34,738 nucleotides of DNA, from the IMG/VR virus record IMGVR_UViG_3300042453_003962, positions 1 through 34,738 of that record. One strand, 5' to 3'. The position numbers were made by a program, and so were the translations under genes. Below are positions 23,287 through 33,951 of the stretch, piece by piece. The notes beneath the pieces are model-generated. The model had not been told where the DNA came from and ran no database searches. It worked only from the letters and a program-made list of their open reading frames with translations. Source of the stretch: a virus. The first letter of the stretch is position 1; each line of letters begins with the position of its first letter.

Positions 23287-26200
23287 ATGGTAGATAAGAT
23301 TGTACCCACAGAAGCAGTAGATTCTCCATACTATAATGACTACGATGAGACAAAGGATTTCTATAATATCCTGTTTCGTCCAGGTTATGCTGTTCAGGCT
23401 CGCGAATTGACCCAGCTACAAACAATTCTTCAAAAACAGGTTCAACGTTTTGGAGATCACGTTTTCAAGAATGGAAGTATTGTAACTGGAGCACAAATTT
23501 CAACGTCAAAGGCAACGGCTCTAAATCTATCATCCCAATATAGTGGTTCAGATATCACAATTGCAAATTTTGATCGCAAGTATGTCAATAATACAACAAA
23601 CACAGCAACAACTCAAGCAACAGCGTTTGTGTTAACATATGAAACCGGTTCATCTCCAGTATTGATGGTCAATTATATTTCTGGAGACACTTTTGCAAAT
23701 GATACGATCAAGGCATCGAACACATCAGACTTTGCAGTAATTTCTGGACCAGAAGGTCTAGGAACAGTTGCAAGTATTTCTGAAGGTGTAATGTTTGTCG
23801 ATGGATATTTTTCAAGAGTTGCAGCACAAACAATCATTCTTGACAAGTATTCAACATCTCCATCATATCGTGTTGGATTAGAACTAGATAAAAGCATTGT
23901 TCTTCCAACATCAGATACATCTCTTCTTGATCCTGCATTAGAAGCATCAAATTATCAGGCTCCAGGCGCTTCTCGCTACAAGATAACTCTAACTCTTGCT
24001 AAACGCACACTTGATAGTACCGACGATAGCCAGTTCATTGAACTTCTTCGTGTTGAAGATGGATACATCACAAATATTATCAAGTATCCAATTTATTCTG
24101 AATTGGAAAAAACATTAGCAAGAAGAACAAATGACGAGTCGGGTAGCTACACAGTCAGACCATTCACAATTCGATTGAGAGATCATGCAAACACAACTCC
24201 AAATGCGGAGCTATTTACTGCAACATTAAGTCCTGGAAAAGCTTATGTTCAAGGATTTGAATATGAAACATATAGTTCATTCAATCTAGATGTTGAAAGA
24301 TCAAGACAATCTTCGAATGTAAATAATTATCCACTATCATTGAATTATGGAAATTATGTTGTTGCGACAAATGCAAATTCTACTGGCGGCGCAACATCGA
24401 CCGGATTTTTCAAAATAGATGATTCTGGCATTGGTCCACAGCTTGTCGATTTGCATTCGGTTGTTCGCGGTCAAATTAATACAGTAAATCCAACCTCATA
24501 CGCAGCGACTAAAGTTGGAACAGCAAGAATAATAAATGTTGACTATGATAGTGCTGGAAATACAGCAAATTCATATTCATACAAATATAGAGTTTATTTG
24601 AATGATTTTTCATTCTCAAATGTAACCGGAACAATATTTGCAAATACATCAAATGATAAAATTGTACTAGCAAATGTGTCAAATGAAACATCGGCACAAA
24701 CTGTAGCAAACGTTGCAAACGCATATCTAGGTTCGGTCATAAGAATTGCAAATGGTGCATTGTCGGGAGTGACCAGAACAATCGTAAGCTATGATGGAAC
24801 TACGAGAACAGCAACTCTTGACTCAAATATTGCCATATCAACAGCTCAAGCAAACGCTGATCGTTGGTCAATAGATTTCTCATCTAGAGATATCAAGAGC
24901 ATGGCAAATATCGTAACTGGAACTCCAGTTTCTATTGGTGGTTCTATGGACGTTGATGTATCAAGCAAATATGGTAGCAATACAGAAATTACCGATCCTA
25001 GATACAACAAGTTGCTATTTGAGCTACCACAAAACTATGTCAAGCAGGGTATAACTGATCAAACATACGACTACTTCAAGGTGTTGGGTACTGCAGTATC
25101 CTTTACAAGCGGAACAACTGGGTCAATTAGTGCTGGTGTTGGAGAAGTATTTCTTGCAAATGGTACACAGTCAACTACTCAAGCATTGGAAAACTTCATT
25201 GTTGTTATTCGCAACAATCTAGGTTCAACGATTGGAGCAAACGGTGCAATTCTACCTATGACAACAGGTAGTGCAAGCATTGTCGTTAATAATGGAGGAA
25301 CGCCAACAGCAACTTTCACGGCGCCTCAAGCAAATACATTCACAGCTGACATTTTGGCAAAAGTTTCGATAACTTCTGGATCAAAAATAAATGAGAAGTT
25401 GAAGACTCTAGTTACTTCAAATTCCACACATATTCAAACGCAAGGTGGAACAGCAAATGCAACATTTGCAAATGTTTCTATCTATTCTGCAGCTGGTCAA
25501 GTTCATCTTTCCGCGCCAAACAAGACACCAGGTCAAAAAGATAGCTTGTACACATCTGACGTTTATGAAATAAACAAGATATATGATATCGGGTCTGCTG
25601 CTTTCACAAGCGGAACTGTTTTATCTTCATATAATGACATTACATCAAGATACTCTCTTGACAATGGACAAAGAGATGATCATTATGATCATGGCGGAAT
25701 TGTCTTTCTTCCAGGAAATTCGCCACCAACAGGAAATGTTGTAGTTTGCTTTAGTTATTTCAAACACGAAACTGGTGGTAGTGATGGTTTAGGATATTTC
25801 TCTGTCGATTCCTATCCATATTATAACAATATTCCACAATATACAAGTGCATCATCAGGCGAAACATATGATCTAAGAGACTGCATAGATTTTAGACCAA
25901 GAAGACGAGACAACTCAAACACTTCGCCCGGATATACTCTACAAACCTTCAGAGTCGGTCTTCCTAATGAAGAATTTTCTGCCGATTATCAATATTATTT
26001 GGCAAGAAAAGACAAGATCGTATTGACAAAAGACAGAGTCTTTAGCGTTGTTAAGGGCATCTCTTCTCTAAATCCAGTTCCTCCTAGAGAACCTGAAGGA
26101 TCAATGGTTCTGTATAATTTGACCATTGCTCCTTATACAGCATCGCCAGCAAATGTAATAGTAAAGTACGTCGAAAACAAACGCTACACGATGCGTGATA

Positions 26201-27852
26201 TCGGTTCTCTAGAAAAGAGAATTGAAAATCTAGAATATTACACGGCTTTGAATTTGGTCGAAAAAGATACTGAAATCATGTCGATCAAGGATGTTAATGG
26301 TCTTGATCGCACAAAGAATGGTATACTTGTTGATTCGTTCAAGGGACATTCTGTCGGTGACGTAAGAAACATTGATTACAAGTGTTCAATCGACACTAGA
26401 ACAGAAGAACTTCGTCCGTCAACTAATACAAATTCACACTACTTGGATTATGATTTTAGCGCAAGTACTGGATTGACATATAAATCGGGTCTTGTATTGC
26501 TTCCGTATACGACAGAAGAAATGGTTGTTCAAAACGTTTCATCGCAAACAGTTGACGTTCAACCATATCTGTTTGCTCGCTTTGTTGGCTCAATACAATT
26601 GATTCCTGAGTCTGACTTTTATTTCAACAAGTATGACCTACCAGATGTGACGATAAACTATACCGGAGAAAACGATGGATATTCGGCATTGCAATCAGCA
26701 CTAAGTGGTACAACATCTGCGTTTGATGCTGAATTCGGTCATTGGGAAACACGTTCAACTGGTGCAGAAATTGTTACAAATGAATTGAACGAGCAGGGAA
26801 GAAATGGACTACAAATTTGGGAAAATGGTGTAAATAGAACAACGACATTTGGCGGCTATCAGAACGGATTCCTGCGTCGCTCTTCATTTGATCAAATTTC
26901 TCAAACTGTCAATGATCGTGTCGTAAACCTTGGTGTTACTCCGATCATGCGTCAAATCGATATTGATTTTGTCGCAACATCTTTAAGACCAAGAAAAGTT
27001 GTATATTATTACTTTGATGATGTGAACGTAACAAATTATGTTCAGAGAGCTAACGAATTAGTATTTTCTGGAAATAATTTCTTTGATAAAGCCGATGGTG
27101 AAAGAATTACTTCGGGATCGGGTAATACTGCAAATGTTATCTTGTCAAAGACATTGTCATCATCTAATGTTGCATATGTTGCAGACGTTAGCGGGAATGT
27201 GATAGCTGGACAAACTTGGACAGGTGCAAGATCTTCAAATACAGGTATTGTTGTAGAATATAGACACTATTCAGGTACTGCAAGAAGTGCAAATTCAACT
27301 ACGATCAATCTTGCATTTGATGCAGCAAACACGGATAGTTGGTATGTAGGAAATACAATCTACTTTGTTGATGGTTTAGGTGTTGGATCTTCTTATACAA
27401 TTGATGCGTATATTGGCTCAACGAGATCTGCAAGAAACACTGCAGGCTTCTCTGTAACACCAGGATCAAATACAAGATATTCGATTGGCGATTCAAAGAC
27501 AAATGAATTTGGTCAACTTGCCGGCACATTTGTTGTACCAAGCAATAGTACGTTGAAGTTTAGAACTGGCGAGAGAATGTTTAGAATAAGTAATCTTGCT
27601 AATGGTTCTTCAAACGGTTCAACGACTATTGGCGAAAGCAAGTTCTATGCACAAGGATTGATTGGTGTTTCTGTAGGCGTAACTGCAACCAGATTGCCAC
27701 AGCCTACATATTATCCTGGAGATGCTTATTATTGGGATGGTGATGCTGGAAATCATGGAGCACCAGATAATAATGGTTATGGCGGTGGTGGATTAGGTCC
27801 AGATAGTACAGGAGCCAGTGGTTTTGGTGGCGGCGGATCAGAACAGCAATAA
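23287..27852 (+). CDS. Giant virion structural protein, DUF4815 type
   Basis: 1521 residues, the largest gene here. The N-terminus (YYNDYDETKDFYNILFRPGY, then AVQARELTQLQTILQKQVQRFG and HVFKNGSIVTGAQIS, written in parts) is the DUF4815 signature found in long baseplate/fiber-associated proteins of cyanophages. The middle is beta-rich. DLRDCIDFRPRRRDN and MRDIGSLEKRIENLEYYTAL (about 960) are strong family landmarks. The last ~45 residues are Gly/Asp/Asn-rich (NNGYGGGGLGPDSTGASGFG). In related phages I recall the 'LAQTFFV' segment continuing in the same chain; here it begins a separate gene 28 bases later. Probable role: peripheral baseplate or fiber attachment. Confidence 0.85.
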   Translation: MVDKIVPTEAVDSPYYNDYDETKDFYNILFRPGYAVQARELTQLQTILQKQVQRFGDHVFKNGSIVTGAQISTSKATALNLSSQYSGSDITIANFDRKYVNNTTNTATTQATAFVLTYETGSSPVLMVNYISGDTFANDTIKASNTSDFAVISGPEGLGTVASISEGVMFVDGYFSRVAAQTIILDKYSTSPSYRVGLELDKSIVLPTSDTSLLDPALEASNYQAPGASRYKITLTLAKRTLDSTDDSQFIELLRVEDGYITNIIKYPIYSELEKTLARRTNDESGSYTVRPFTIRLRDHANTTPNAELFTATLSPGKAYVQGFEYETYSSFNLDVERSRQSSNVNNYPLSLNYGNYVVATNANSTGGATSTGFFKIDDSGIGPQLVDLHSVVRGQINTVNPTSYAATKVGTARIINVDYDSAGNTANSYSYKYRVYLNDFSFSNVTGTIFANTSNDKIVLANVSNETSAQTVANVANAYLGSVIRIANGALSGVTRTIVSYDGTTRTATLDSNIAISTAQANADRWSIDFSSRDIKSMANIVTGTPVSIGGSMDVDVSSKYGSNTEITDPRYNKLLFELPQNYVKQGITDQTYDYFKVLGTAVSFTSGTTGSISAGVGEVFLANGTQSTTQALENFIVVIRNNLGSTIGANGAILPMTTGSASIVVNNGGTPTATFTAPQANTFTADILAKVSITSGSKINEKLKTLVTSNSTHIQTQGGTANATFANVSIYSAAGQVHLSAPNKTPGQKDSLYTSDVYEINKIYDIGSAAFTSGTVLSSYNDITSRYSLDNGQRDDHYDHGGIVFLPGNSPPTGNVVVCFSYFKHETGGSDGLGYFSVDSYPYYNNIPQYTSASSGETYDLRDCIDFRPRRRDNSNTSPGYTLQTFRVGLPNEEFSADYQYYLARKDKIVLTKDRVFSVVKGISSLNPVPPREPEGSMVLYNLTIAPYTASPANVIVKYVENKRYTMRDIGSLEKRIENLEYYTALNLVEKDTEIMSIKDVNGLDRTKNGILVDSFKGHSVGDVRNIDYKCSIDTRTEELRPSTNTNSHYLDYDFSASTGLTYKSGLVLLPYTTEEMVVQNVSSQTVDVQPYLFARFVGSIQLIPESDFYFNKYDLPDVTINYTGENDGYSALQSALSGTTSAFDAEFGHWETRSTGAEIVTNELNEQGRNGLQIWENGVNRTTTFGGYQNGFLRRSSFDQISQTVNDRVVNLGVTPIMRQIDIDFVATSLRPRKVVYYYFDDVNVTNYVQRANELVFSGNNFFDKADGERITSGSGNTANVILSKTLSSSNVAYVADVSGNVIAGQTWTGARSSNTGIVVEYRHYSGTARSANSTTINLAFDAANTDSWYVGNTIYFVDGLGVGSSYTIDAYIGSTRSARNTAGFSVTPGSNTRYSIGDSKTNEFGQLAGTFVVPSNSTLKFRTGERMFRISNLANGSSNGSTTIGESKFYAQGLIGVSVGVTATRLPQPTYYPGDAYYWDGDAGNHGAPDNNGYGGGGLGPDSTGASGFGGGGSEQQ

Positions 27853-30318: not shown

Positions 30319-31212
30319 ATGTTTCTACCACTTGTCACTAGACCAAATATACTAATAAACATAAACTCTATTGCAAACAATGTCAATTTGCGAGCAAGGG
30401 CAAATTCGCCATCATATCCTTTAAATGTTTTTTGCTTGATCAATGCAAACATTACGAGTAATTCTGCAAATATTCCAGCACTTAGAACTGGATTTGGCTG
30501 GGCAAATTCTACATATATTGTGATAAGAAACTCAGCTAATATTGTTGGGAATATAGGAGTTACTGGTATTTCTGGTTCTGGTGGTGCAGGCGGTCCCGGA
30601 GCAGGATATCCCACAAATCCAGTTGCAGCAGGTTCTGCTGGCGGAACTGGCGGGCAGGGTGCGAATGGTAGTCCTGGGTTTCAAGCAGAGGCAAATACCG
30701 GAACAACAACAACATCATTTGTCATAGTAATGAATAATCAAGGTTCTATCATAGGCGGCACCGGCGGTCCTGGCGGTCAAGGCGGTGGCGGCGGCGGCGG
30801 TGGTGGTGCTCTAGGATTTACACCAAGCAAAGGTGTTGGTCAATATCACGGCGGCGGCGGTGGCGGCGGCGGTGCCGGTTCTCCTATTGGTCTTGGCGGC
30901 GCAGGAGGACCTAGTAATGTTAATGGATCAGCTGGAGCAAATGGAACGGCTACACTTGGCGGCGCTGGTGGTGCTGGCGGCGGCGGTTCTACATATACTG
31001 CTGGACCGGGCGGTTCTGGTGGAAATCTTGGCGTTGCCGGTTCTCCTGGCGGAAATAACGCTGGATATGCATTCAATACAACATATGGCGCAAGAGCCGG
31101 AGGTGCTGCCGGAGCAACAGGAAATGTTGGTAATACGGGATTTGGTATTTCTGGCAATAATTTGATTAGATTTGTTGCTTTTGGTACTGTAGTTGGAAAT
31201 ACTTCAAACTAA
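30319..31212 (+). CDS. Polyglycine-rich adhesin-like tail protein
   Basis: 297 residues. The first ~85 look like an ordered beta domain (MFLPLVTRPNILININSIAN, YIVIRNSANIVGN). From residue ~85 the chain is dominated by GG-x-GG and runs of up to nine glycines (30570-31130), ending in an ordered SGNNLIRFVAFGTVVGN. The pattern recalls the polyglycine-II sandwiches of gp38-type receptor-binding adhesins (for example phage S16), and similar glycine-rich tail proteins occur in marine phages. Glycines are often GGC, making this part much more GC-rich than the surrounding genes. Candidate receptor-recognition protein; not proven. Confidence 0.75.
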   Translation: MFLPLVTRPNILININSIANNVNLRARANSPSYPLNVFCLINANITSNSANIPALRTGFGWANSTYIVIRNSANIVGNIGVTGISGSGGAGGPGAGYPTNPVAAGSAGGTGGQGANGSPGFQAEANTGTTTTSFVIVMNNQGSIIGGTGGPGGQGGGGGGGGGALGFTPSKGVGQYHGGGGGGGGAGSPIGLGGAGGPSNVNGSAGANGTATLGGAGGAGGGGSTYTAGPGGSGGNLGVAGSPGGNNAGYAFNTTYGARAGGAAGATGNVGNTGFGISGNNLIRFVAFGTVVGNTSN

Positions 31213-31830
31213 TCATACAAATTTAGGACCAGTAATCCAAATTACTATTGTTTTACGAATGCCCTTGGTCACTGGTTTTACCCTATGAATAATGTATGAA
31301 GGAAAGAATATCATTCTACCTTTTTTCATTAATATGGTTTCGGGTTCTTCTTGATTTCCCACATTGATTTGAAATTCTCCTCCAACAAAGTCTTTTTCCG
31401 GATCGGACAAACACATTACAAGAGACAATTTTCTTGTTATATTAAATTTATTTTGACCATGAATCATATCCATGTGCCAGTTATATTCACCACTTTCATT
31501 TCCATGATATTCTGTGTATTGGAAATCAGCATATCCGTTTAATTCATAATTGTAGTAGCTTTCATTTATAATTTTGCTTATTTCATTTACTCTATTAAAA
31601 AACCATGCATTATTTTCATTTTTACTATAGAATTTAATTCTTGATTTTCTTATCTTTTCTGTTTCGTTAATGTCATTGGTACCAACAACAGTTGCTTTTT
31701 CTGTTTGTTCTATTTGACAGTATCTTTCTAAATTTGTTAATTCTTCTTCAGAAAATGCATTATCCCAATATGCCCAACTATATGTTGTACACATTCTTTC
31801 CTCTGGATTATTTGTAATGTCTTTGTACAT
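31213..31830 (-). CDS. 2OG-Fe(II) oxygenase (prolyl hydroxylase-like)
   Basis: 205 residues. Iron- and 2-oxoglutarate-dependent dioxygenase of the PKHD/P4Hc type, frequent in T4-like cyanophages. The iron triad is visible: H119-x-D121 (in YNWHMDM) and distal H172 (FPSYIIHRV), with R182 ten residues on to bind 2-oxoglutarate. FVGGEFQINV is the typical strand between. I chose the ATG at 31830, with GAGGA 7 bases upstream; the in-frame TTG at 31842 lies before it. Its stop directly abuts the stop of the glycine-rich gene. It could hydroxylate a virion, host or nucleic-acid target; the substrate is unknown. Confidence 0.88.
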   Translation of the reverse strand: MYKDITNNPEERMCTTYSWAYWDNAFSEEELTNLERYCQIEQTEKATVVGTNDINETEKIRKSRIKFYSKNENNAWFFNRVNEISKIINESYYNYELNGYADFQYTEYHGNESGEYNWHMDMIHGQNKFNITRKLSLVMCLSDPEKDFVGGEFQINVGNQEEPETILMKKGRMIFFPSYIIHRVKPVTKGIRKTIVIWITGPKFV

Positions 31831-31852
31831 TATTTTCCTCAAGTTGGGTCAT

Positions 31853-31860
31853 TATAAATA
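31853..31860 (+). promoter_or_regulatory. Late promoter (TATAAATA)
   Basis: Exact T4 late consensus in the gap between the divergent oxygenase and the 157-residue gene, 31 bases before the ATG at 31892. It should drive that gene and the PP-loop gene. Confidence 0.7.
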
Positions 31861-31891
31861 AAGATACATAGTTATATATCGGAGTAGGGAA

Positions 31892-32365
31892 ATGGAAGTC
31901 AAGTTTAAAATAATTGATGTTGATTCTTCACAGCACTCAATGATCGTGAGATACTATACTAATTTGCTAACTGAAGATAGTCTAGCAACATCATACAATC
32001 CAGATGGGACTATAGCTAGAAGAAGCGATGGATCACCACAAAGATGTCAAACAGATTATAACTTCAATATATGGCAAACTGATCCTCCTATTACGGAAGA
32101 GCAAATTAAGAAAATTGCAAACGACGGAGCGCCTTATGATTGGTTTAAGCTAAGACACGATATTCTCGATCCTCAAATAGATACTTCCTTAAATGTTGTT
32201 TCCAATCTATTAAATACAGAATTTGATGCCATCAAACCAGTATTTTCTATTGATACTATTGATACGAATGCAAATACAGAAAGTACATTGAGTGAAGATC
32301 ATATTGAAAATCTAATTAACGAACTTCTAAACAATTCAAGTGCAAATACTTCAAACACACAATGA
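31892..32365 (+). CDS. Hypothetical protein in the fiber region
   Basis: 157 residues, not recognised with confidence. The N-terminal ~95 residues look folded (MEVKFKIIDVDSSQHSMIVR, CQTDYNFNIWQTDPPITEEQ, DGAPYDWFKLRHDI). The C-terminal ~50 are acidic, Asn/Ser/Thr-rich and probably flexible. Expressed from the late promoter at 31853. Its ATGA overlap with the PP-loop gene indicates coupled translation. A tail or fiber-assembly role is possible. Confidence 0.7.
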   Translation: MEVKFKIIDVDSSQHSMIVRYYTNLLTEDSLATSYNPDGTIARRSDGSPQRCQTDYNFNIWQTDPPITEEQIKKIANDGAPYDWFKLRHDILDPQIDTSLNVVSNLLNTEFDAIKPVFSIDTIDTNANTESTLSEDHIENLINELLNNSSANTSNTQ

Positions 32366-33564
32366 ATAAAAAACTTGGTTATTATACTGTTGGTAAAAAA
32401 GAGTTGGAATCAAAAATTCATGCGTGTATCTTTGCAACGCATATTGCCAACAATGTCAAGGAAAATGTAGATCCTCTTAGTCTTGTCAAATGGCATTTCA
32501 ACGAAGATATTTTTTCCAATTATAACTGGCTTCAAGAACCCGAAGCGACATTGGATCAACTTTACAATAAACGAGCAAGAGAACTTCGTGAAAAATATGA
32601 CTATATCATAATTAGTTATAGTGGCGGAGCAGATAGTCATAATGTTGTAATGTCTTTTCTTCGTCAAAACCTTCATATAGATGAAATTATCGTAAATTGT
32701 TTGGACAAAGGAAATGAAAAATTTGCTGTAATTGATCCTAATGTTACTGATGCAAAATATGCACATGCATCGGAACATAAGCTGCAGGCAATTCCAAGAA
32801 TAAAAGAAATACAAGCAATTGCTCCACAGACAAAGATTAGTGTCTATGATATGACGGATCATTTGTTTGATTCATTTGCCAATTCTGAAGAAAATTGGTT
32901 TTTGAAAATGCGTGAGGAACTTAATCCTGTTGATGTTACGAGATACAATTATATTCATTTTTCAGACTTTAGAAAAAGAGTTGACAAAGATAAAAAGATT
33001 GCAGTTGTAATGGGGATTGATAAACCAAAAGTTGTTATTGATGATACTAATGACTTTGTTTACTTAAGGTTTTCAGATAGATTAACAAATATATCTCCTG
33101 TTGGAGAATATATGAAAGACTATACAAATACGACGGTTGAATATTTTTATTGGAGTCCTGATGCATGTGATATGTTATGCAAGCAAGCCCATTTAATAAA
33201 AAAATGTATTGAAATTGATCCTGGTCTAAGAAACTTTTTTAGTCTTCAAACACCAAGAAATATGGTACCTGGATTTCTTAGACTTGTGAGCGAAAGGCTT
33301 CTTCGACCAATATTGTACACTACATGGAATAAGACTTGGTTTCAAGCTGATAAAGGTATTTTTGATTGGCACACGGATTTTGACACTTGGTTTATTGATG
33401 GATATGTTGATAATAGGGCAAATCTTATATGGAGAGAGGGTTTAAAACAGGTTGTCAAGCGAGCAAGACCTTTTGTTTATTCGCATGGGCAAGTATATGA
33501 TGGACTAATTAGTTATTATCACAATTATAAAATAGGCGTTTTAAGAAAATTTCATAGTACTTGA
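32362..33564 (+). CDS. PP-loop (PAPS reductase / adenine nucleotide alpha-hydrolase-like) protein
   Basis: 400 residues. A PP-loop pyrophosphatase motif SGGADS lies at 87-92 in YDYIIISYSGGADSHNVVM, with a following IDEIIVNCLDKGN strand-loop and a KIAVVMGIDKPKVVID segment (about 210-228), as in the ATP-binding HUP fold. Such enzymes adenylate substrates (PAPS reductases, tRNA thiolases, QueC, DndC, asparagine synthetases). The C-terminal ~200 residues are rich in Trp and Tyr (TTWNKTWFQADKGIFDWHTD) and fit no family I know; the CxxC motif of many tRNA-thiolating enzymes is not seen. It is late-expressed with the 157-residue protein and sits inside the fiber genes. Substrate unknown. Confidence 0.78.
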   Translation: MNKKLGYYTVGKKELESKIHACIFATHIANNVKENVDPLSLVKWHFNEDIFSNYNWLQEPEATLDQLYNKRARELREKYDYIIISYSGGADSHNVVMSFLRQNLHIDEIIVNCLDKGNEKFAVIDPNVTDAKYAHASEHKLQAIPRIKEIQAIAPQTKISVYDMTDHLFDSFANSEENWFLKMREELNPVDVTRYNYIHFSDFRKRVDKDKKIAVVMGIDKPKVVIDDTNDFVYLRFSDRLTNISPVGEYMKDYTNTTVEYFYWSPDACDMLCKQAHLIKKCIEIDPGLRNFFSLQTPRNMVPGFLRLVSERLLRPILYTTWNKTWFQADKGIFDWHTDFDTWFIDGYVDNRANLIWREGLKQVVKRARPFVYSHGQVYDGLISYYHNYKIGVLRKFHST

Positions 33565-33615: not shown

Positions 33616-33951
33616 ATGGCATCATATGCAGAACTCATAGTAGACCAGGGTTCTACTTTTAGCACAATTCTAACCCTAACAGACGACACAACAAACTTGC
33701 CTATTAATGTTTCCGGATATTCTATCAATGCGAATATCAAGAAATCTTATTATTCAGTAAACAATACTGCCGTTTTTACATCAACAATAAATGATGCCGC
33801 AAACGGAAATGTAACGATTGCATTGTCATCTGGTGTCTCAACAAACATCAAGGCCGGAAGATATGTTTATGATGTAAAAACTACTAGTCCGGGAAGCGTG
33901 GTAACTAGAGTTATTGAGGGTATTCTTACGGTAACGCCTAAGGTATCTTAA
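33616..33951 (+). CDS. BppU-N-like baseplate/fiber protein
   Basis: 111-residue all-beta protein. It begins YAELIVDQGSTFSTILTLTD and continues GYSINANIKKSYYS, SGVSTNIKAGRYVYDVKTTS and VIEGILTVTP. This is the layout of the BppU N-terminal-like domain that anchors receptor-binding parts to baseplates in several phages. AAAAGGT precedes the ATG by about 7 bases. It opens a run of three tightly packed genes (33616, 33953, 34186) that ends with a fiber, so it may be a fiber adaptor. Family assignment is moderate. Confidence 0.7.
   Translation: MASYAELIVDQGSTFSTILTLTDDTTNLPINVSGYSINANIKKSYYSVNNTAVFTSTINDAANGNVTIALSSGVSTNIKAGRYVYDVKTTSPGSVVTRVIEGILTVTPKVS

Follow-up and report, generated by a model that had tools for sequence, protein, structure and literature searches.

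The DNA analyzed here, a 34.7-kb IMG/VR record of a T4-like aquatic virus (hereafter the window), contains genes matching T4-like tail and baseplate families, followed by fiber genes; a 1521-aa ORF is located at positions 23287-27852. Among the fiber genes an initial annotation had placed a dioxygenase, an unknown protein and a 400-aa PP-loop protein, and this layout was confirmed: all three ORFs are present, the first product matches Pfam family PF13640 and the third contains the motif SGGADS.

The locus comprises, from left to right, (i) a gene encoding a Gly-rich fiber or adhesin of 297 aa (positions 30319-31212, plus strand; phrog_10745, E 2.8e-7), paired with the third gene in related viruses, (ii) the gene of a 2OG-Fe(II) oxygenase of the PKHD/prolyl-hydroxylase type (31213-31842, minus strand), whose 3′ end abuts the fiber gene, (iii) a gene designated U (31892-32365, plus strand), which is divergent from the oxygenase gene, begins 50 bases from its start and encodes a 157-aa protein assigned to no known family, a probable fiber partner, (iv) the gene of a PP-loop ATP pyrophosphatase (32362-33564, plus strand; 400 aa), similar to an asparagine synthetase without its glutaminase part, and (v) a fiber-assembly-related ORF of 111 aa (33616-33951, plus strand; phrog_3304 'L-shaped tail fiber protein assembly', E 7.5e-17), which marks the right-hand end of the insert and is 80-89% identical in relatives. 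The start of the PP-loop gene and the stop of U overlap by 4 bases (32362-32365). The two genes are therefore probably translationally coupled, as had been proposed, and may have one promoter in common.

Synteny of this block extends to five near-identical IMG/VR contigs and to several others at 50-75% identity. Every pair with changes gives a pN/pS ratio below 1 for the cassette, although from few changes among the near-identical strains and from saturated synonymous sites among the others. The Gly-rich fiber, 297 aa long in the window, has 513 aa in the near-identical contigs (L226:10223-11764), which also carry two more genes upstream of it (encoding a 135-aa protein and a 294-aa fiber protein) that are missing from the window. 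These differences in fiber length and gene content represent rapid fiber remodeling.

The structural region of pelagimyophages and cyanomyophages includes, ahead of the neck genes, a large and variable host recognition cluster that contains fibers and unrelated enzymes (PMC7029224). The locus is likewise a variable island of fibers and unrelated enzymes. It lies among fiber genes and, as seen in a near-identical 73-kb contig, is bounded by neck genes: the fiber genes of that contig are followed by neck13 and neck14, from families that give matches to head-tail adaptor Ad2 and head closure Hc2. The phages with such clusters have been reported to carry radical SAM cassettes and a desaturase (PMC7029224); a word search of the same paper retrieved no asparagine-synthetase-like ligases and no TTT/TRAP binding proteins.

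The oxygenase, U and the upstream box

The oxygenase matches PF13640 (2OG-FeII_Oxy_3) with 62 bits (cut-off 27; E 1.1e-16) and phrog_61 (E 4.6e-26), and a generic 2OG model was the sole match obtained for the locus with PADLOC. Its active site, HxD...H...R, is intact, with H123, D125, H186 and R196 invariant in an alignment of 10 relatives. The listed start codon (TTG) is doubtful and position 31830 (Met5) is a likelier start, since Met5 is the first residue that is invariant among relatives. The nearest solved structures are PKHD hydroxylases, followed by a prolyl 4-hydroxylase. The catalytic residues and the profile match are shared with the PKHD hydroxylases PiuC and Sbal_3634 and with phage oxygenases of phrog_61, but the window protein belongs to a tight subfamily of its own.

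Cyanophages commonly encode oxygenase relatives of 29-38% identity. Those with at least 41% identity were found in three settings: (i) beside the fiber and U, (ii) next to another 2OG enzyme and to TctC-like genes and (iii) between genes resembling, by eye, the recombination genes of gp47 and gp46 (L142, L143, L146, L151, L155, L191 and L197). The same family is thus used at two widely differing locations in these genomes.

Searches with U gave no match above the cut-off in Pfam, PHROG, NCBIfam or PDB and no relative among the phage isolates searched; a PDB sequence search with the Gly-rich fiber returned nothing useful. Of 30 dereplicated U loci, 19 have a Gly-rich fiber gene immediately before U, and in four more, including the window, the antisense oxygenase gene alone separates the two. 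The position directly behind a fiber gene, typical of tail-fiber chaperones (cf. Tfa, gp38 and Pam3 gp25), is thus also that of U, and this almost constant placement in relatives makes a fiber partner the most likely assignment. In cyanophage Pam3, the Gly-rich fiber gp24 is followed by the small chaperone gp25, which has a β N-terminal and a helical C-terminal domain (PMC9608196). The predicted structure of U (pLDDT 87) has the same composition, with a β N-terminal and a helical C-terminal part, so that U is similar to Pam3 gp25 and TfaMu (PMC9608196) in architecture and, for gp25, in its place behind a Gly-rich fiber; it differs from both in that no sequence or fold match was found. Comparison of the model with solved folds, known fiber chaperones included, gave no clear match (the best, with Z 4.1, was to a secretion chaperone and lies within noise). 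By analogy, we infer that U is most likely a fiber partner resembling an assembly chaperone; its model is good but has no clear counterpart among solved folds.

The octamer TATAAATA, a T4-type late-promoter-like box, occurs as an exact match at positions 31853-31860 (plus strand), approximately 30 bases 5′ of U. The bare match means little, as two copies of the octamer are present in the window against 2.8 expected. It gains weight from two further observations. TAAATA was found upstream of 8 of the 36 gene starts in the window, where approximately 0.9 would be expected under a uniform model that ignores AT-rich spacers, and a similar box is present in the other three lineages of the same gene order: all four lineages with an antisense oxygenase gene between the fiber and U (window included) have ATAAATA at -34 to -40 before U. 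These four lineages are kin and do not represent four independent events. In nearly all other loci among the 30 dereplicated U copies, U lies behind the fiber gene and the ATAAATA box is absent; the exceptions are L164 at -52 and L177 at -39, where the match falls within the 3′ end of the preceding gene. Most simply interpreted, U normally shares a transcript with the fiber gene and needs a late promoter of its own once the oxygenase gene separates them. The exact late promoter originally ascribed to both U and the PP-loop gene corresponds to this box, a possible promoter in front of U; in the window the PP-loop gene has no promoter box of its own. Expression with the late genes is plausible.

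The PP-loop protein and its relatives

The PP-loop motif SGGADS occupies residues 87-92 and is invariant, or nearly so, in the family: SGGxDS constitutes the invariant core of alignments of 42 and 80 rows and is present in 94 of 102 copies. The residues invariant across 80 sequences include the SGGxD loop, R71, R76, G218 and K221. Above the cut-off, the protein matches nothing in Pfam, PHROG, NCBIfam or the PDB sequences, PF00733 does not match any of six family members, and PDB sequence searches with the protein and with its profile yielded nothing useful. No relative was found in 50,697 phage records, nor in plasmids, and no description of the family was found in the literature. A profile scan of IMG/VR revealed at least 142 relatives in uncultured viruses.

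A structural model built with AlphaFold from 42 relatives (pLDDT 93) placed the protein among amide-forming synthetases. The best Foldseek matches were carbapenam and β-lactam synthetases (E 1e-4). The VIA Z values were 11.5 for human ASNS (residues 4-384), 10.8 for AsnB and 9.9 for β-lactam synthetase; across ASNS, AsnB, β-lactam and carbapenam synthetases and TsnB9 they ranged from 8.6 to 11.5, mostly over residues 3-384, compared with at most 7.8 for other PP-loop families, including NAD synthetase, GMP synthetase and LarE. The Trp-rich C-terminal half, initially regarded as unfamiliar, is recognized in the model as the C-terminal part of the synthetase domain.

A single sequence proved too weak for comparison with AsnB, and a profile of nine sequences was used instead. 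With it, residues 4-240 aligned in collinear order to AsnB 145-364, starting at the final glutaminase-domain hairpin and running through SGG.DS, although with a marginal E value (0.006). The sequence LGYYTVGKKELESKIHACIFA aligns with the stretch before the AsnB linker. The alignment starts at AsnB residue ~140-149 and the N-terminal glutaminase domain, with its catalytic Cys, is absent, which indicates that the protein consists of a synthetase domain plus the last glutaminase hairpin. It therefore has in common with asparagine synthetase B and the β-lactam and carbapenam synthetases the synthetase-domain fold over its whole length, SGGxDS and this hairpin, and differs from them in lacking the glutaminase domain and a PF00733 match, in very low sequence similarity and in the motif G218-x-D-K-P, almost invariant in the family, at the place of the AsnB sequence GEGSDE. 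Because of this substitution, the chemistry or the substrate may differ from those of asparagine synthetases. K331 was considered, on the basis of its motif, as a candidate counterpart of the AsnB catalytic lysine.

Judging from the fold matches, the adenylation and amidation suggested at the outset would be the right chemistry to expect. ATP would be bound at SGGxDS, a carboxylate would be adenylated with the release of pyrophosphate, and ammonia or an amine would then attack to give an amide.

Cellular relatives of 357-361 aa (E ~1e-50) were detected in 4 of 369 Bdellovibrionota genomes and form one clade in the tree of PP-loop proteins. They are chromosomal and belong to lineages of predatory bacteria (L097, L098, L116 and L117). 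Three of the four are located, by eye, near an RpiB-like gene; other neighbors, in different genomes, are genes for a spermidine-synthase-domain membrane protein, a methyltransferase-like protein and a GT2-like protein.

Gene neighborhoods and exchange of the PP-loop gene

Among 80 loci with oxygenase relatives, U was found nearby in 44 and the PP-loop gene in 41, and of 52 PP-loop loci four have a member of this oxygenase family within ~10 kb and three have U nearby. Adjacency was assessed for 102 dereplicated PP-loop copies with shuffled gene order as the control. All neighbor counts, these included, come from loci that differ in length and were chosen by similarity to the very genes counted, and the oxygenase-anchored ones contain the oxygenase by construction. 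The most frequent neighbors were genes of the TTT/TRAP type (TctC, DctP or TctA), which adjoin the PP-loop gene in 50 of the 102 copies, against 14.0 ± 3.2 in the shuffles (maximum 26). Adjacency was also recorded for a QueC-like PP-loop gene (15 copies; 6.7 expected), an NMO-like gene (10; 2.0 expected) and U (10; 3.5 expected), while that of the oxygenase or its cousin (9; 9.3 expected) is at the chance level. These counts indicate that U goes with the fiber and the PP-loop gene with transport genes, with no special pairing of ligase and oxygenase. The co-occurrence expected of the three genes thus holds in part: they recur together at loci of this type, but the PP-loop gene and the oxygenase gene are not preferentially linked. 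PP-loop genes were also found in other viral gene neighborhoods, e.g. near PhoH (cluster 10).

No match to the TctC or DctP families was found in the closest relatives of the window, including contigs of 73, 142 and 197 kb, so the link to transport genes has been demonstrated at the level of the PP-loop family and not of this copy. The 197-kb contig, which carries the syntenic cassette elsewhere, contains a run of genes (L225:7003-17419) for a radical SAM protein, two PP-loop proteins, TctA (as two separate ORFs) and a secreted protein, together with two small ORFs and, by eye, carbamoyltransferase-like and peptide-binding-protein-like genes; this run resembles a phage-borne small-molecule cluster. 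In another contig (L052:1674-11155), the PP-loop gene is part of a run that includes, by eye, genes for an amino-acid-binding protein, a dicarboxylate symporter and an aspartate/glutamate racemase, which is in line with a carboxylate or an amino acid as the ligase substrate. The QueC/NAD-synthetase-like proteins (L199:7243-8043 and relatives, alignment A7) constitute a second PP-loop family that is a frequent neighbor of the first; neither this family nor the one carboxylate-binding transport protein also looked for was found in the phage isolates searched.

Most ligands of TTT/TRAP proteins are carboxylates, with aspartate, glutamate, citrate and nicotinate recorded for TctC relatives (PMC5812351) and a selectivity for carboxylates in TRAP binding proteins (PMC4646407). 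Virus contigs of SUP05 have been reported to carry tctA and 2OG-FeII oxygenase auxiliary genes, families that were both also seen here; the role of tctA was called unknown, and the passages covered describe neither a ligase nor linkage of the genes (PMC4164917).

The slot behind U has received a PP-loop gene on at least three occasions, its occupants coming from three clades or more. In a tree of 105 PP-loop proteins (a quick tree with some long branches), occupancy of this slot needs three changes, and supported branches force all three. Sequence identities also differ between the gene and its surroundings. The window PP-loop protein is 52% identical to that of L024, compared with 71-83% for the neighboring oxygenase, U and fiber, and 50-54% identical to those of relatives in which these neighbors are mostly 64-83% identical. 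Conversely, L024 and L111 share 66% identity in the PP-loop protein and 43-57% in the oxygenase, U and the 243-aa fiber gene. Such mismatches indicate that the PP-loop gene has been replaced independently of its surroundings.

Possible roles of the locus

The locus is probably the cargo part of a T4-like host recognition cluster, the variable stretch between the baseplate/fiber and neck genes, in which U as a fiber partner, a hydroxylase in antisense orientation and an exchangeable ligase of the asparagine-synthetase type, acting on a small carboxylate, would be functionally separate. U would be made late, with the Gly-rich fiber, and would aid its folding or assembly. The oxygenase is a predicted 2OG-Fe(II) hydroxylase inserted antisense between the fiber gene and U. 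The PP-loop gene would be an exchangeable auxiliary gene, expressed late here only because of its place behind U. The substrate of the ligase is most likely a small carboxylate and not a virion protein, given the steady presence of TTT/TRAP neighbors across viruses and the carboxylates known as their ligands.

The initial annotation had suggested that the three genes could form one module modifying virion proteins or nucleic acid. In the former case, the oxygenase would hydroxylate and the PP-loop enzyme amidate side chains of the Gly-rich fiber, which U would present. All three genes abut this fiber gene in the window lineage, U and the oxygenase occur by Gly-rich fibers in many viruses, in three clades the PP-loop gene immediately follows U, and a prolyl 4-hydroxylase is among the nearest oxygenase structures. 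We nevertheless consider this role unlikely, since the PP-loop gene is beside a Gly-rich gene in 1 of 102 copies (4.1 expected) and beside the oxygenase no more often than by chance, many of its copies are far from fibers, and the slot may be empty of it, with fiber and U retained in L110 and L113 and fiber and oxygenase in L023; the oxygenase family also resides among DNA-metabolism genes. Action on tRNA or DNA, with a PP-loop enzyme of the TilS, MnmA or QueC kind and an oxygenase for modified bases, is even less probable, and indeed very doubtful. PP-loop enzymes often act on nucleic acids, the QueC-like family is a frequent neighbor and the oxygenase family lies beside recombination-like genes in some viruses, but the fold groups with amide-forming synthetases instead of TilS, MnmA and QueC, and neither a nucleic-acid-binding part nor a partner gene was observed. 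The preference of the PP-loop gene for transport genes, its independent exchange and the presence of both enzyme families in other neighborhoods argue against a single module of either kind.

The ligase and the oxygenase might instead alter a sugar or lipid of the host surface, e.g. by amidation of a sugar acid, and block superinfection in the way of the glycosyltransferases of such clusters. LPS-type genes do occur in host recognition clusters (PMC7029224), and one Bdellovibrionota homolog adjoins the GT2-like gene, with what look by eye like aminotransferase and epimerase genes close by. The PP-loop protein also weakly matches the model of the N-acetyl sugar amidotransferase WbuX (E 0.003), but far under the cut-off; moreover, glycosyltransferases are not among the frequent neighbors identified and a change of the envelope leaves the transport proteins unexplained, so we regard this explanation, like virion modification, as improbable.

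An extension of the favored reading, host-recognition-cluster cargo, can be put forward tentatively. The PP-loop gene may belong to an exchangeable small-molecule pathway of uncultured aquatic T4-like phages, in which secreted TTT/TRAP proteins would capture a carboxylate, the ligase (often with the QueC-like PP-loop protein) would couple it to ammonia or an amine, and radical SAM, 2OG and other enzymes would finish a nutrient or a bioactive product late in infection.

The locus shows that host-recognition islands mix fiber parts with swappable enzymes, and U represents a candidate class of fiber partner. The PP-loop proteins constitute a probable amide-forming family, named in none of the databases searched, which is widespread in uncultured aquatic viruses and associated with carboxylate-binding transport proteins. 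If the ligase and the transport proteins act together, these phages would take up a compound of their own choosing and convert it during late infection, which goes beyond boosting the metabolism of the host.
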